Below, in pieces: positions 7,758 to 64,000 of a stretch of DNA of 64,000 nt; position 1 is the first letter of the stretch; every line of letters begins with the position of its first letter. The position numbers and the translations under genes were made by a program. Source of the stretch: Armatimonadota bacterium (lineage in GTDB: Bacteria; Armatimonadota; Zipacnadia; Zipacnadales; UBA11051); NCBI GenBank assembly GCA_013178155.1, contig JABLXH010000005.1:1-64000 (forward strand). The letters run 5' to 3'. The notes below the pieces were generated by a model that ran no database searches, was not told the origin of the DNA, and saw nothing but the letters and a program-made list of their open reading frames with translations.

Positions 7758-9511
7758 GCAAGGCGTACAGGATAGTACTGGTCATGGCGGTGGTGGTGCT
7801 GCTGGGCAGCGCGACGGTTCATGCGCAGCAGGCGTACTGCTACATTCGCGATGTCAAGATCACCCCGCTCAGCAACGGCGTACAGATCCAGGTCAAGGCC
7901 GATGGCATACTCAACTGGATGTACGGGTCAGACGACAACTCCCGCGAAGCCCGCTACGGGGAGGAGGTGCCCGAGCTCACCATCCGCTTCCCCGAGGCAC
8001 GGCTTGAGCTGGAGAAGACCCTCTACGATGTCGAGCAGCCCCCTGTGTCCACAGTCGTGCTGGCGGTACCGCAGGACGCCGTTGGTGGCATGGGGGTGGC
8101 AATGACGGTGCAGATGTCGGAGCGTTCGCGGGTACGCGCCAATACGTCCGAGGATCGGCAGTCCTTCCTGCTGACGGTCTACAGCTCCCGTACCATCGAG
8201 CGGGGAGCCAAGGGCGAGACTGCGACTGCCGACCTCAAGGAAGGGACCATTGAGGTGACACCGGGCACCGACGGTCGCCTGAGCGTCCGCGCGATCCGGG
8301 CGGACATCCACCAGGTCGTGGCGCAGGTGGCGCGGGCCGGACGCTTCGGGGTCGCGGTTGACGATGCGGTCCAGCGGAAGGTCTCGCTCAACCTACAGGA
8401 CCGCACCGCGCTTGACATCGTGAACGGCATCGCTGTCGGCTATGGGCTGGCCCTCTCCAACGTGGGCGACATGTACATGCTTAGCGAGGGCGTCCCGACC
8501 GATCTTCCGACCTATCGTCGCAGCGGGACGGCGTCCTTCCCGACCAAGTATCTCAAAGCCAAGGACGCAGCGCAGTTGCTGCCAACATTCCTGTTCAAGT
8601 ACGTCCACGACAACCCCGAGCAAAACGCAGTGGTGGTCACGGCCCCGACGCAGATGCTCACCAAGATCGAGCGCGACCTGAAGGCCATTGACGTCCCGCC
8701 GCCGATGATCATGGTGGAGTGTGCTGTGGTGGAGCTGACTGACGCCGACGACCTCGACGCCCAGTTCCGGTGGCGGTACCAAAGCACCGAGTACGACGTG
8801 GGCACCGACAGCGGCACTGGAGAGGTGGACTACACCAATGTGCAGCCCGAGAACGGCCTGGTCTCCGCCATTGTGCCAGCGCCAATCCTGCAGGCCTGGC
8901 TCCAGGGACTGACGACGCAGGGCAAGGCCGAGGTCAACGCCCATCCCTCCATGGCCGCGGTGAACGGCAAGAATGCCGAGATCTTCATCGGATCGGAGCG
9001 TTACATCAAGATTTCCTACCTGAGCAGTGGTGTGCAGCAGGAGCGAATCGAGAAAGTCCCGGTGGGTGTGCGCCTGAACGTACGCCCCTGGACCGGCGGC
9101 AACGACGAGATCACCACCGGCCTGCACGTCGAGGTGTCCAACATCGTGGACCTGGACCCGGCCACGGGCGTGCCCAAGCTCAGCTCGCGCGAAGCCAGCT
9201 CGACCCTGCGCACCCGTGACGGCGACATCATCGTGATTGGTGGTCTGTCCCAGCGCCAGCAGGAGAAGACCTGGCGGCGCATCCCTCTACTGGGCGACCT
9301 GCCGCTCATCGGCAAGCTCTTCCGCAGCCGCTCCACACGTTCCAGCACCACTGAACTGGTGATCCTCATCCGGCCGCGTCTGCTGGACGAGAACGGGCGT
9401 CTGCCGCAGGCCGAGGACTGCAGCATCCGGCAAGAGTTCCTGCTGCCCGGTGAGCTGGGCTGCCCCACGCCCGAGGAGGTGCCCGTGACGCCCGCTGCGA
9501 AGGCTGAATAG
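7754..9511 (+). CDS. Secretin-family protein 3 (PilQ/GspD-like)
   Basis: The 585-residue product overlaps the preceding stop by 4 bp (ATGA), implying translational coupling. It has a signal peptide (MSKAYRIVLVMAVVVLLGSATVHA), an AMIN-like beta domain (about 26-135), an STN-like domain (about 175-245), an N1-like domain (about 252-318, DNPEQNAVVVTAP) and a full secretin core. The core includes KAEVNAHPSMAAVNGK, RTRDGDIIVIGGL and the classic IPLLGDLPLIGKLF end. It is the most canonical of the three and the best candidate for a pore-forming outer-membrane ring. A strong hairpin follows the stop. Confidence 0.88.
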   Translation: MSKAYRIVLVMAVVVLLGSATVHAQQAYCYIRDVKITPLSNGVQIQVKADGILNWMYGSDDNSREARYGEEVPELTIRFPEARLELEKTLYDVEQPPVSTVVLAVPQDAVGGMGVAMTVQMSERSRVRANTSEDRQSFLLTVYSSRTIERGAKGETATADLKEGTIEVTPGTDGRLSVRAIRADIHQVVAQVARAGRFGVAVDDAVQRKVSLNLQDRTALDIVNGIAVGYGLALSNVGDMYMLSEGVPTDLPTYRRSGTASFPTKYLKAKDAAQLLPTFLFKYVHDNPEQNAVVVTAPTQMLTKIERDLKAIDVPPPMIMVECAVVELTDADDLDAQFRWRYQSTEYDVGTDSGTGEVDYTNVQPENGLVSAIVPAPILQAWLQGLTTQGKAEVNAHPSMAAVNGKNAEIFIGSERYIKISYLSSGVQQERIEKVPVGVRLNVRPWTGGNDEITTGLHVEVSNIVDLDPATGVPKLSSREASSTLRTRDGDIIVIGGLSQRQQEKTWRRIPLLGDLPLIGKLFRSRSTRSSTTELVILIRPRLLDENGRLPQAEDCSIRQEFLLPGELGCPTPEEVPVTPAAKAE

Positions 9512-9540
9512 GCACCAGAGGTTGTCCGCAGCAGCTTCCT

Positions 9541-9570
9541 GCGAGGGGCCGGCACTTGCTGGCCCCTCGC
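9541..9570 (+). terminator. Terminator-like hairpin after the secretin operon
   Basis: A perfect 10-bp stem GCGAGGGGCC/GGCCCCTCGC with a 10-nt loop begins 30 nt after the third secretin stop. There is no T-tract, so it may be a Rho-assisted or simple 3'-stabilising hairpin. Confidence 0.55.
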
Positions 9571-9610
9571 CGCGTGTGGCAATAAACCATCGGCGCAGGA
9601 GGTGACAGGG

Positions 9611-10753
9611 GTGTCTGCGGGCAATACGCCGCCGCAAACTCTCGCGCTCACGCGCTCCCAGGAGATGATCCCGTTGTCTGAACCGCGCAAAGCTCGTCTG
9701 GCCTTCGTTGGCTGTGGAGGCTTCACGAACGCCTCGATCTTCCCGTGTCTGCCCATGGTGCCCCGCGCCGAGGTGGTCGCTGTCTGCGACATTATCGAGG
9801 AGAAGGCGCAAGCCGCCTCTAGGCTGTTCAACGCCTGCCCGGTCTATACCGACATGGAGCGGATGCTGGATGAGATCGAGGTGGATGGTGTGTTCGCCAT
9901 CGGCCCCGCGCCGACGCAGTACGAGGTTGCCCCGCGTATCCTCAAGCGCGGCATACCGGTCTATGTTGAGAAGCCGTCGGCCAATACGTCAGCCGAGGCC
10001 CTGGAGATGGTCAAGGTCGCCGAGGACGCTGGTACCTGGGGCCAGGTTGGCTTCATGAAGCGCTTCGCCCCGGCCTATCGGCTGGCCCGCAGCATCATGG
10101 CCAGGCCGGAGTTCGGACAGCTCAACATGGTCAACTGCAAGTTCGGCCAAGGGCCGTACCCGCAGATCTGGGGCATTGACAGCGCCCAGCGCGCCTTCCT
10201 GATCGGCCAGTGCTGTCACCTGATGGATCTCATTCGCCACTTCGGTGGCGATGTGGCCACCGTGCAAACCATCTGTCGCGAAGCGCCTCAGAACCCGGAT
10301 GACCCCCACGTCTCCACCCGCATATCGTACCTGACCAACGTCACCTTCCAAAGCGGCGCCATCGGCCAGCTTAACCTCAACTGCATGGAGGCCAGGCACG
10401 GCTTCCGCGACCTGGACGAGCGTCTCGAGTTGGTCAGCATGGAGAACATCGTCACGGTCCATCGCATGTGCCACGTGACCTGGCGTAAGTCCGAGGACTG
10501 GGACGACACGTTGCCGTCCAGCGGCTGGTACTCCCTGGACCACGATGCCCGGGGCCTGGGTGTGTGGAGTGCTCACGTGCAGATCGGCTATGTCGGCGAG
10601 GTCGAGCACTTCGCCCTGCGCTGCCTGGGCGAGGTGGACAAGGGCGTATCCGGTGACCTGATGGACAGCGTGAAGAGCTTGCAGATCGGCGAGGCCATCT
10701 ATGAGAGCGCTCACAACGGCGGCAAGGTGGTGGAGGTGAAGCAAGGGGCGTAG
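9611..10753 (+). CDS. Gfo/Idh/MocA family NAD(P)-dependent oxidoreductase
   Basis: I start this at GTG 9611 because AGGAGG (9597-9602) lies 8 nt upstream; an in-frame GTG at 9602 overlaps that site. The 380-residue product has an N-terminal Rossmann fold (AFVGCGGFTN at 32-40, acidic strand-2 end AVCDI) and the family EKP motif at 120-122, whose Lys takes part in catalysis. The C-terminal alpha/beta domain carries the sugar-binding side. Family members oxidise or epimerise sugars and inositols. No signal peptide is present, so it should be cytoplasmic. The substrate cannot be read from sequence. Confidence 0.88.
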   Translation: MSAGNTPPQTLALTRSQEMIPLSEPRKARLAFVGCGGFTNASIFPCLPMVPRAEVVAVCDIIEEKAQAASRLFNACPVYTDMERMLDEIEVDGVFAIGPAPTQYEVAPRILKRGIPVYVEKPSANTSAEALEMVKVAEDAGTWGQVGFMKRFAPAYRLARSIMARPEFGQLNMVNCKFGQGPYPQIWGIDSAQRAFLIGQCCHLMDLIRHFGGDVATVQTICREAPQNPDDPHVSTRISYLTNVTFQSGAIGQLNLNCMEARHGFRDLDERLELVSMENIVTVHRMCHVTWRKSEDWDDTLPSSGWYSLDHDARGLGVWSAHVQIGYVGEVEHFALRCLGEVDKGVSGDLMDSVKSLQIGEAIYESAHNGGKVVEVKQGA

Positions 10754-10835
10754 TCAGGGGCATCCAGTCGGAACTCTTTCGCCGCTGCGGTGTTCCCCCA
10801 CGGGAGAGTGCTTGTTACTGCCGGAGGTGAGGCCG

Positions 10836-12314
10836 ATGTGTGCATGGTCTGGCCGGGCAGGGATCGCCGCGCTGGTTGCTGTCGCGGCGGTGGTGGGGGG
10901 GACGCTCGCCCTGCGCCCCGCAGCGGTTGCCTGGAACGATAGCGCCGCCGTGCGTCTGGCTCTGGGGCCGGTGCTGGCGGCGCTGTCTCAGGACCCTGTC
11001 GCCGACTTCCCTGAACTGGCCGGGCGTGAGCCCACGACAGAGGAGAAGACCGCCATCTCGGCCCAGGTGGCGGCCTATGTGGAGGCGCTGCATGCCCGCC
11101 AGTATCCGCAGGCCTGGGCCATGACTGCCCCGGAGACGCGCGAGCCCTGGGAACTGGATGAATGGGAGGCCTACTTCGCCGGCCTGCGTGGCGGCACCAA
11201 TGACGGTGACGAAGACGCTGAGCTGTATGGTGAGGCATACGACGGCGACACGATGGCGCTGTTGCTGGGCCACGAAGCGCGCCTGGCCGAGGTGCTGACC
11301 TGGGGTGACGCCGGGGTGTGCCGCATCGTGGTCGAGGACGAGATGCCGGCGATGCTGGCGCTGGTCCACACCGACCAGGGCTGGCGCGTAGACCTGCATG
11401 GCACCGACGATGCCCAGGCAAGGCTGGTCGTGCACCGGCAACTGTCTACCCTCGCCAGGACCACGACGATGCAGGGCTTCCTCCAGGGGATGATGATGAC
11501 CCAGGAGGACGCCGTGCCCCCCAGCTACCTGGATCTACTGGTCGTGCCCGCGGGGAAGCTCGACTACCGGATCGCGGCCTGCAGGATCGAAGGCAACCGG
11601 GCTCTCGTTGCCATCCTGGGGCGCCGGGAGCTACATCTACGGGTGCCGCTGGCCAACGGCGATCAGGGCTGGAGTATCGCCTGGTGCAGGGGCTGTCGGG
11701 TCATGCAGCCCAACGAGAAGCTTACCACCCCCTCGCCGGAGGAGCTGGCCGCGCGGGACTGGCGGATTAGCTGCGCCAGCAACCTCAAACAGCTGGCGCT
11801 GGCTATGCTGATGTACTGCCAGGACTACGATCAGAAGATGCCCATCGCCGACCGCTGGTGCGGGGCGACCTACCCGTACATCCGCAACAACGCTATCCAC
11901 CACTGCCCGGCTGACGACGGTTTCCCTTTCAGCTATGCCATGAACTACAAGCTCAGCCGCCAGCCCATGTCGCGAGTGATGGCCCCGGCAGAGACCGTCA
12001 TGCTGTTTGAGTCCAGCCTGCACCGGGCCAACGCGTACGACAGGGACGGATACCCTGGCGACTCCCTGGCTGTACCGCCACGCCACGGTCGGGTAAACAA
12101 CTACGCTTACGTGGACGGCCACGTCATAGCCCATCCGCCAGAGGCGATGGGACGGGACTTCTACCGGCTGCAGCCGGAACGTTACGCGGGGATGCCCTAC
12201 CCCCCTGTTGGCACGCCCCCCACTGGACCGGGTGGATCACCGGCCCTGCCCGGACATGCACCCGGCTCGCCGCCGATGCCGCTCCACCTCCGCCACCACT
12301 GGACTGAACCGTGA
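10836..12314 (+). CDS. Membrane-anchored protein with pilin-type H-X9-DG C-terminal head
   Basis: The start at ATG 10836 is supported by GGAGG 8 nt upstream. The 492-residue product begins with a short N-region and one hydrophobic helix (about 9-27), acting as signal or anchor. Residues about 30-305 form a domain I do not recognise. From about residue 308 it shows the post-helix segment of Armatimonadota/Planctomycetota pseudopilins (SNLKQLALAMLMYCQDYD) and an exact H-X9-DG motif (His417, Asp427-Gly428). The class III prepilin peptide (GFTLIE-like) is absent, so this is a pilin head moved onto another scaffold. The tail is Pro/Gly-rich. It follows an oxidoreductase with no clear functional link. 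Confidence 0.7.
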   Translation: MCAWSGRAGIAALVAVAAVVGGTLALRPAAVAWNDSAAVRLALGPVLAALSQDPVADFPELAGREPTTEEKTAISAQVAAYVEALHARQYPQAWAMTAPETREPWELDEWEAYFAGLRGGTNDGDEDAELYGEAYDGDTMALLLGHEARLAEVLTWGDAGVCRIVVEDEMPAMLALVHTDQGWRVDLHGTDDAQARLVVHRQLSTLARTTTMQGFLQGMMMTQEDAVPPSYLDLLVVPAGKLDYRIAACRIEGNRALVAILGRRELHLRVPLANGDQGWSIAWCRGCRVMQPNEKLTTPSPEELAARDWRISCASNLKQLALAMLMYCQDYDQKMPIADRWCGATYPYIRNNAIHHCPADDGFPFSYAMNYKLSRQPMSRVMAPAETVMLFESSLHRANAYDRDGYPGDSLAVPPRHGRVNNYAYVDGHVIAHPPEAMGRDFYRLQPERYAGMPYPPVGTPPTGPGGSPALPGHAPGSPPMPLHLRHHWTEP

Positions 12315-62086: not shown

Positions 62087-62126
62087 TGGGCGCGACGGGC
62101 CGGCAACGGCTCAGATGCAAGAAAAG

Positions 62127-62151
62127 GGCCCCCCGACACGAGCGGGGGGCC
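62127..62151. terminator. Bidirectional intrinsic terminator
   Basis: A perfect 9-bp stem GGCCCCCCG/CGGGGGGCC with a 7-nt loop is preceded by GAAAAG (a T-tract on the minus strand) and followed by TGTGCTTTG. It lies between convergent genes. Confidence 0.85.
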
Positions 62152-62176
62152 TGTGCTTTGTGGCCGCGGTTGGTGT

Positions 62177-62596
62177 CTAGCAAGTCCGGTCGCGTTGGCG
62201 GTCGCGAGTGCGAGTCCGGTCGCTGGCAAGACAGCTCCCGTCGCGCTTGCGGTCACGGATCTGCTTGCGGGCCTCCTGGCAGCTCCCATCGCGCTTGCGG
62301 TCACGGGTCCGAGTGCGGTCCTGGTCCCGGTCACCGTCGCGGTCACGGATCTGGCTCTGCGTGGGATCATCTAGCTGGTTTCGGTCCCGCACTCTGTCCT
62401 GAGTCTGCGTGCGCGTCTGCAGTTGGGACTTTGCGCGGACCTGAGAAGCCGATTGCGTCTCCATCGTCTGGCTGTTGCGGATACGAGGTCGGGGCTGTGT
62501 GCCGTCCTGGCCATGTCGGTTCTTGTCGCCGCCGGCCCAGGCAGCGGTGACAATGAGCAGAGCGGAGAGGGTCAGAACAACTGCATGGCGTAGCAT
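62177..62596 (-). CDS. Secreted Arg/Asp-rich repeat protein with repeated Cys
   Basis: ATG 62596 with AGGAGG 7 nt upstream yields 139 residues and a signal peptide (MLRHAVVLTLSALLIVTAAWA). The mature part is extremely polar: Arg, Asp, Gln, Thr and Ser, probably disordered. The C-terminal third repeats a 16-residue unit containing RDRKRDGSC twice and ends DRQRDRTC, so each unit ends in Cys and the last residue is Cys. No domain is recognisable. It is divergent from an XRE-type regulator across 181 AT-rich bases. It might be a disulfide-linked surface polymer, a metal or polyanion binder, or a source of exported peptides. All of these are inference. Confidence 0.7.
   Translation of the reverse strand: MLRHAVVLTLSALLIVTAAWAGGDKNRHGQDGTQPRPRIRNSQTMETQSASQVRAKSQLQTRTQTQDRVRDRNQLDDPTQSQIRDRDGDRDQDRTRTRDRKRDGSCQEARKQIRDRKRDGSCLASDRTRTRDRQRDRTC
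62231..62310. repeat. 48-bp tandem repeat inside the Arg/Asp-rich gene
   Basis: Two near-identical 32-base blocks (62231-62262 and 62279-62310) are spaced 48 bp apart and encode the 16-residue RDRKRDGSC units; a third diverged unit encodes the C-terminus. Confidence 0.6.
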
Positions 62597-62640
62597 CGCA
62601 TTGCCTCCTAAGGCGCGAGATTGGTTGTACGCACGCCGAG

Positions 62641-62649
62641 AGTATACCA
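62641..62649 (-). promoter_or_regulatory. Extended -10 promoter for the Arg/Asp-rich gene
   Basis: TGG-TATACT on the minus strand lies about 45 nt before ATG 62596. It is identical over ten bases to the NifU-gene promoter at 57863. The -35 is poor. Confidence 0.5.
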
Positions 62650-62698
62650 TTACTCACAGACGTTATCTATTCTAAAACGCACATTTGTCTGTTACAAC

Positions 62699-62712
62699 TA
62701 TACATCGGTATA
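62699..62712. promoter_or_regulatory. Candidate operator (inverted repeat)
   Basis: TATAC-ATCG-GTATA lies between the two divergent promoters; a second spaced repeat, ACAGAC (62656-62661)/GTCTGT (62687-62692), is nearby. XRE proteins bind such dyads, so autoregulation is plausible but not shown. Confidence 0.35.
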
Positions 62713-62729
62713 TCAAGAAAAGACTAAGG

Positions 62730-62758
62730 TTGACACGCTTCCTCAAGTATGGTAGCTT
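62730..62758 (+). promoter_or_regulatory. Sigma70-type promoter of the XRE regulator gene
   Basis: TTGACA (62730-62735, perfect), a 17-bp spacer and TAGCTT (62753-62758). The predicted transcript would start about 13 nt before the ATG at 62778, giving a very short leader without a strong Shine-Dalgarno. Confidence 0.6.
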
Positions 62759-62777
62759 ACGCGTGGGACCTAACAAC

Positions 62778-64000
62778 ATGGATCTGGTGACCAGCGACGG
62801 TAGAAAAGAGCTCGGTCGGCGCATCCAGGCGGCCATCATGGAGGCTGGCTATGGATCGCTGTCTGAGTTCGCGAGACAGGTCGGATGGTCGCGTGCGCTG
62901 ATATACCAGTACGTGAACGGAACGGTTCTGGTGCAACTCGACCGTCTACAACAGATTGCGGAGCGCACCGGCAAGACGTTGGAGTGGTTCCTGGTTGGCG
63001 ATCAGGCTGTTGACAACGGTCTGGTGGCGGAGCTGCGAGAAGCTCTGGGCACAGCCCGGGAAGAGGTCAGGGCGCTGCAGTTGGAACTCAGCGAAGAGCG
63101 TGCCGCGCGTTTGTCGGAGGGACAGCGGCAACTGCGGTCGGAGCTGAACCTGCTGGGTGACTACTGTCGGGCTCTGCGTCGTGCTGGTGACGCGCCCGGC
63201 CTCGTCGAGGCCGGGTCGCGCTGGTTGGAGGCCGCTCAGCGGGCCGGCGATCAGCGCAGCCAGATGCAGGCGAGACTGCAGATGGGTCACGGGTGGTTCC
63301 TGCAGGGGCAGCTTGGGCGCGCCGAGGAAGTGCTTGCGGAAGCAGTGACTGAGGCTGGCGGTGCAGGGCAGGAGGCGATCGTGAACTCCGCCCGCCAGGA
63401 ACTGGTCAGGGTGCTGCTGCAGTCGGGCAAGACCGATGAGGCCCGCCGTCAGGCGTCATCGCTGGCGCACGCAGACCTGTGGTGGCCGCGATGGGCCGGG
63501 CGGCTGATGCTGGCCGCCATAGCGGCTCAGGAAGCCGAACTGGACGAGTGCACAGAAGAGCTTCAGCAGGCTGAAGAGGTCATAGAGTCAGGCGATGAGC
63601 CGGCGGCTCGGCGGGCGGTCGCCCGGGCGTATCTGCTATCCAACCGCGTGACCGCAGCCCTGGCCGCGGGCCAGTACGGCCGGGCCGCTTCGCTAAACGA
63701 TGAACTGAGATCCCTCGCCGCCCAGGCGGGGGTGGCTGACCAGTTGCGCGAGGCAGAGCTGAACCGGGCCATCATCGCCGTGCGTCGTGGACAGGTTGCG
63801 GACGCACAGCGCAGTCTGGGCCTGCTGCGTGACTGGGCTCAGATGGCCCAGGATGCCCGCCTTGAGGCCCTCACGAGTGCGTTCCAAAGCGAGTTGGCGC
63901 GGCGGCTGGGGCAGCCTGCCGAGGCTCGGGAGCTGGGCAGGGCGGCGCTGCAGAAAGCTCTTGGTTCGGGGCAACCACACCTGATGCTCGAGGCCCACCT
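62778..64000 (+). CDS. XRE-family HTH regulator with C-terminal helical (TPR-like) repeats, 3' end outside window
   Basis: The frame from ATG 62778 stays open to the window end (407 codons). Residues about 12-72 form an XRE/Cro HTH: LGRRIQAAIMEAGYGS, SEFARQVGWSRALIYQYVNG, LQQIAERTGKTLEWFLVG. Residues about 82-125 look like a coiled coil. The rest repeats helical pairs with TPR-like spacing (QARLQMGHGWFLQGQLGRAE; QELVRVLLQSGKTDEAR; NRAIIAVRRGQVADAQ). HTH plus TPR is the architecture of peptide-binding RRNPP regulators and of other sensors. The divergent gene encodes a secreted repeat protein, which makes a sensor role attractive. No ligand evidence exists. Confidence 0.8.
   Translation, partial: MDLVTSDGRKELGRRIQAAIMEAGYGSLSEFARQVGWSRALIYQYVNGTVLVQLDRLQQIAERTGKTLEWFLVGDQAVDNGLVAELREALGTAREEVRALQLELSEERAARLSEGQRQLRSELNLLGDYCRALRRAGDAPGLVEAGSRWLEAAQRAGDQRSQMQARLQMGHGWFLQGQLGRAEEVLAEAVTEAGGAGQEAIVNSARQELVRVLLQSGKTDEARRQASSLAHADLWWPRWAGRLMLAAIAAQEAELDECTEELQQAEEVIESGDEPAARRAVARAYLLSNRVTAALAAGQYGRAASLNDELRSLAAQAGVADQLREAELNRAIIAVRRGQVADAQRSLGLLRDWAQMAQDARLEALTSAFQSELARRLGQPAEARELGRAALQKALGSGQPHLMLEAH

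Follow-up and report, generated by a model that had tools for sequence, protein, structure and literature searches.

We identified, in a genome of the phylum Armatimonadota, what is probably a local, self-regulating switch for envelope genes, so far seen in this phylum alone. The proposed switch consists of an operon that encodes an HTH-TPR regulator and a lipoprotein, joined in the order to which this genome belongs by a divergently transcribed exported gene. Its gene order, a conserved box in the lipoprotein, a repeated dyad in the divergent region, and the domain structure of the regulator can each be demonstrated by reading the sequence.

The locus lies at the end of the window, the 64,000-nucleotide stretch of DNA analyzed here. 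The contig extends to 93,292 bp and the window covers its first 64 kb, which allowed us to read the 3′ end that the regulator gene lacks in the window. A sequence-only reading of the window had described a secreted protein divergent from a regulator with a helix-turn-helix and TPR-like repeats, and both genes are located as it described. The exported protein, which is rich in Arg, Asp, and Gln, has 139 aa (62177–62596, minus strand). An AT-rich divergent region of 181 bp (62597–62777) separates it from the regulator, which begins at 62778 on the plus strand. The window contains the first 407 of the regulator's 583 aa (62778–64000); the remainder of the gene extends to contig position 64529. 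Recovery of this end also revealed a gene invisible to the sequence-only reading: a 135-aa lipoprotein with a GTG start, encoded on the same strand beyond the window (contig 64526–64933), whose start overlaps the regulator stop (contig 64526–64529). Beyond the exported gene, a scanner predicted a hairpin (62126–62152) that resembles an intrinsic terminator acting in both directions, and Rfam gave no match within the window. A role in defense was considered and rejected, as PADLOC gave no match.

The regulator–lipoprotein pair is the real unit of the locus. The next gene on the regulator's strand encodes an exported lipoprotein in the 22 loci that we read closely. The 36 named loci from a collection-wide scan show this arrangement in 34 cases, and the remaining two are broken or cut off. 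Fourteen contigs, recognized by identical length, are common to both sets, leaving 42 distinct loci, and the pair is kept in 42 of 42 resolvable loci (genes in relatives were called with a simple script). The two genes often overlap by 4 nt and otherwise lie within about 45 nt of each other. The earlier proposal of a module that links a secreted gene to the regulator thus survives as a local unit of regulator and exported protein, but the obligate partner is the downstream lipoprotein.

An alignment of 22 lipoprotein sequences contains an invariant lipobox (G20-C21) behind a signal peptide, both judged from motif and hydrophobicity, and the signal peptides show no conservation beyond the lipobox. 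The proteins carry a CarboxypepD_reg-like domain, and Big_2 is present in some of them. Shortly after the lipobox cysteine, the box GG-x-[ILV]-P-x-G appears in all 22 aligned sequences, in slightly varying form. The box has 19 DNA matches in its own genome, of which only the one in this lipoprotein gene is preceded in frame by a signal peptide and lipobox. In a structural model of the lipoprotein, the box region has low confidence (block means 53–62, compared to about 97 for the domain), and the box is accordingly predicted to sit in a disordered linker ahead of a beta-sandwich domain. Conservation of the box could equally serve sorting or surface anchoring of the lipoprotein.

We found a match to the regulator in 22 of 81 Armatimonadota genomes. 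The collection-wide scan, which was alignment-based and seeded from a single HTH peptide pattern, returned the 36 loci mentioned above, including one in a genome assigned to the cultured species Chthonomonas calidirosea; the loci that bear taxonomic names belong to Zipacnadia/WS1, Chthonomonadaceae, Fimbriimonadaceae, and other Armatimonadetes; a single-sequence scan of the collection contigs, unlike the alignment-based one, gave no matches. Within the reach of a scan from one HTH peptide pattern, the regulator–lipoprotein switch is so far confined to Armatimonadota, in that every taxonomically named locus falls there. A distant HTH-TPR protein in G079 was set aside, as it is encoded without a lipoprotein. 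None of the papers listed by our literature searches describes the pair, as judged by title and abstract.

The regulator itself is described consistently by sequence and model. The sequence-only reading had called it an XRE protein with a coiled coil and TPR-like repeats, which agrees with an HTH_3 match (Pfam E-value 5.7e-7) and with an AlphaFold model built from the 22-member alignment (pLDDT 93.3), in which the HTH is followed by a 58-residue helix (79–136) and then by 11 TPR-like helix hairpins. Across the 22 aligned regulators, Pfam identifies HTH_3 in 21 and TPR models in most. These proteins range from 488 to 618 aa, with two members below 500 aa, and two stretches are nearly invariant among them: the recognition region, GCSRALIYQY, and the N-terminus, where M-D-L is followed by GR. 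The alignments used here are shallow.

The regulator is genuinely linked to its divergent neighbor, but at the level of the order, and the divergent gene is not conserved in sequence. The ORF in the window starts with an ATG at 62596, and its N-terminal signal peptide ends at approximately AWA-GG. The protein had been described as secreted and made of RDRKRDGSC units. Export is borne out by the signal peptide, but the composition was overstated: the string occurs twice, together with a terminal RDRQRDRTC variant, within 139 aa, giving three C-terminal RDxxRD-x-x-C units. At the DNA level, a 27-nt repeat is present in four copies at 65% identity or higher, with a spacing of 42–51. A search with the protein sequence across the 81 genomes returned only the self-match and is uninformative given the low complexity of the query, and we read gene neighborhoods in its place. 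An exported protein is divergent from the regulator in 10 of 10 order-level loci; its family differs between relatives and its sequence varies. The divergent gene is Arg/Asp/Gln-rich in G000, G008, and G013, with the latter two carrying exported ORFs of composition similar to the Arg/Asp-rich protein in the same position, and the remaining order-level loci encode lipoproteins. Full-length members of the main family of these divergent lipoproteins occur nowhere but next to the regulator, and the gene in G024 contains an internal stop codon. Outside the order, the neighbor is divergent and exported in about one-third of cases and is usually something else. Conservation of the divergent pair, on which the sequence-only reading had staked its proposal, therefore holds within the order but usually not beyond it.

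Two smaller observations concern the divergent lipoproteins. One locus (L061; G031:C3) encodes two of them in tandem beside the regulator (9137–10144 and 10680–11309), both from one family; the alignment shows stop codons in the second, which is perhaps a decayed copy. In addition, the RDGSCQ string of the Arg/Asp-rich protein (62177–62596) resembles [LV]RDGSCQADV in the divergent lipoproteins of L054–L061; the likeness may be due to chance, and we do not claim homology from it.

The divergent region has an unusual base composition. Its 181 bp, a length that the sequence-only reading gave exactly, have a G+C content of 44.8% compared to 65% for the window, and only 4 of 3191 windows of the same size are equally AT-rich. 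For the divergent gene, a scanner predicts a pair of promoter-like sites on the minus strand (TTGTAA-17-TAGAAT and TAGATA-17-TATACT, 62641–62697). On the plus strand, a promoter-like TTGACA-17-TAGCTT (62730–62758; TTGACA at 62730, TAGCTT at 62753) falls below the scanner threshold, but its layout resembles, by eye, the arrangement in order-level relatives. Of the promoters previously suggested on both strands, the minus-strand sites are therefore supported by the scanner and the plus-strand site by this likeness. The predicted leader of the regulator is only about 13 nt, and the position of the −10, assigned by eye, suggests a very short-leader or leaderless mRNA. In order-level relatives (L053–L061), a −10-like element is likewise seen by eye roughly 6–20 nt before the regulator start, in the interval that corresponds to 62753–62780 of the window.

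An inverted repeat noted earlier in this region (ACAGAC/GTCTGT) is present, but its arms are more plausibly half-sites of a 17-bp dyad that occurs repeatedly and is common to relatives. We scanned all combinations of 5-mers and gaps over the ten order-level upstream regions, and the top dyad, GTCTA-N7-TAGAC, scored 85, compared to 74–77 for the best dyads in six shuffled sets. The best sites begin 70–91 bases ahead of the regulator start. Within a fixed 25-nt range the score is 85, whereas none of 500 shuffles exceeded 65; when two close relatives are left out, the windowed score is 68 compared to 54 for the null. Shuffling leaves the shared ancestry of the intergenic regions in place, so these scores make the operator a strong prediction rather than proof, and since the dyad was examined within the order, the prediction is an order-level one. 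In the window, one candidate operator, GTCTGTTACAACTATAC (62687–62703), covers a −35-like hexamer of the divergent gene, and a second, GTATATCAAGAAAAGAC (62708–62724), lies just upstream of the regulator's −35; a third dyad, TACCATTACTCACAGAC (62645–62661), is weaker (6/10). Across its own genome the dyad is not enriched (22 sites compared to 45 for a reversed control), and of ten other sites inspected, nine are enclosed by plausible coding frames, whereas the tenth may be intergenic. A wider regulon is not claimed, and this distribution is what would be expected for a local regulator. The recurrence of the dyad at a fixed distance in ten divergent regions thus makes a local self-regulating switch likely.

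The domain build of the regulator invites comparison to the RRNPP receptors of Gram-positive quorum sensing, and the sequence-only reading had proposed an RRNPP-like module. Under this explanation, the Arg/Asp-rich protein or the lipoprotein would be cut, and the TPR domain would bind the resulting peptide after its re-import. Like PrgX, PlcR, NprR, and Rgg, the regulator combines an XRE-type HTH, a helical linker, and a C-terminal TPR solenoid with an adjacent exported product; Rap is an RRNPP receptor that lacks the HTH. The published signature comprises a receptor of 250–500 aa with peptide-binding TPRs and an adjacent secreted propeptide of 10–100 aa (PMC10075063), and a precedent for lipoproteins exists in enterococci, where the pheromones of PrgX derive from lipoprotein signal peptides (PMC7117660). 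TPR_12 is found in 19 of 22 family members, a TPR superhelix that might bind a peptide is predicted, and the genes for receptor and exported products are adjacent. By contrast, sizes fall outside the signature: the receptor has 583 aa here and more than 500 aa in most family members, and the annotated exported neighbors have 139 and 135 aa here and 118–367 aa (divergent) and 135–261 aa (lipoprotein) in relatives. No RRNPP model (such as Rgg_C, RNPP_C, RapH_N, or TIGR01716) is among the Pfam and NCBIfam matches listed for the 22 members (the best 25 of 39 Pfam families). The best 50 Foldseek matches are generic TPR superhelices, and a match of the regulator's sequence profile to RapJ (E-value 5.5e-7) ranks behind dozens of unrelated TPR proteins. 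The OppA-type binding protein SBP_bac_5 (PF00496), which the proposed importer would need, is missing from this genome, which is 95.6% complete, as well as from 11 of 21 carriers, while control genomes match. Furthermore, pheromones diversify, whereas the lipoprotein box hardly varies within the phylum; the signal peptides that served in the enterococcal case are unconserved here beyond the lipobox, and the divergent protein switches family between relatives. RRNPP membership is not supported, and we regard peptide quorum sensing at this locus as very improbable. The family thus differs from RRNPP systems in its lack of a family-model match, its length, its 11 hairpins, its larger exported partners, its independence of OppA, its obligate lipoprotein with a conserved box, and its phylum.

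A more serious competitor, though one we still consider unlikely, is an ordinary one-component regulator that controls envelope genes while its TPR domain senses something unrelated, be it a small molecule or a protein partner, and the lipoprotein is just carried along as operon cargo. The best-scoring named TPR regulator models, of the NsdA, AfsR, and MalT type (NCBIfam NF053720, NF053617, and NF003420), match a minority of members and do so through generic TPR repeats only; such generic similarity is compatible with a one-component regulator, as is the presence of common surface folds (CarboxypepD_reg and Big_2) in the lipoprotein. AfsR and MalT have a domain build that differs from that of the HTH-TPR regulator. 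The constant presence of the lipoprotein and its family-specific box, on the other hand, exceed what would be expected of passive cargo. Even in distant classes the operon is invariably retained, and the box lies in a predicted disordered linker, which argues that regulator and lipoprotein cooperate.

In the self-regulating switch that we favor, a regulator dimer, formed by the HTH and the long helix (79–136), would bind the predicted dyad sites. From the dyad just upstream of the −35 it would act on its own promoter, and it could either occlude or co-activate the divergent promoter, so that the two exported proteins would be adjusted jointly. The groove of the 11-hairpin TPR domain may be the sensor, although this is uncertain. 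As the ligand, our favored guess is not an imported pheromone but the lipoprotein precursor: whenever export lags, its conserved box might be recognized while the protein is still in the cytoplasm. Such sensing would amount to feedback on envelope export. The more specific proposal that the groove reads GG-x-[ILV]-P-x-G of its own lipoprotein, as an export state or a returned fragment, and that the pair forms a phylum-wide export-feedback system in a didermic lineage, seems to us improbable as it stands. In FlgM–sigma28 and the ExsCDE cascade, a cytoplasmic regulator reads the export of a co-expressed protein. The proposed switch resembles these systems in logic, as an analogy only, and differs in that the exported partner is a lipoprotein.

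To our knowledge, few regulatory systems have been described in Armatimonadota. If the lipoprotein precursor were the ligand, the switch would represent a new mechanism by which cells keep track of export to the envelope, and the predicted operator together with the relative in the genome assigned to Chthonomonas calidirosea makes the idea testable. Separately, further TPR proteins that match the TPR part of the regulator but lack the HTH are encoded at L027, L032 (G045), and L028 (G044), and one Chthonomonadaceae genome has Dpp/Opp-like ABC transporter genes in the vicinity of the regulator (L072; G052:C17, 10032–12139).
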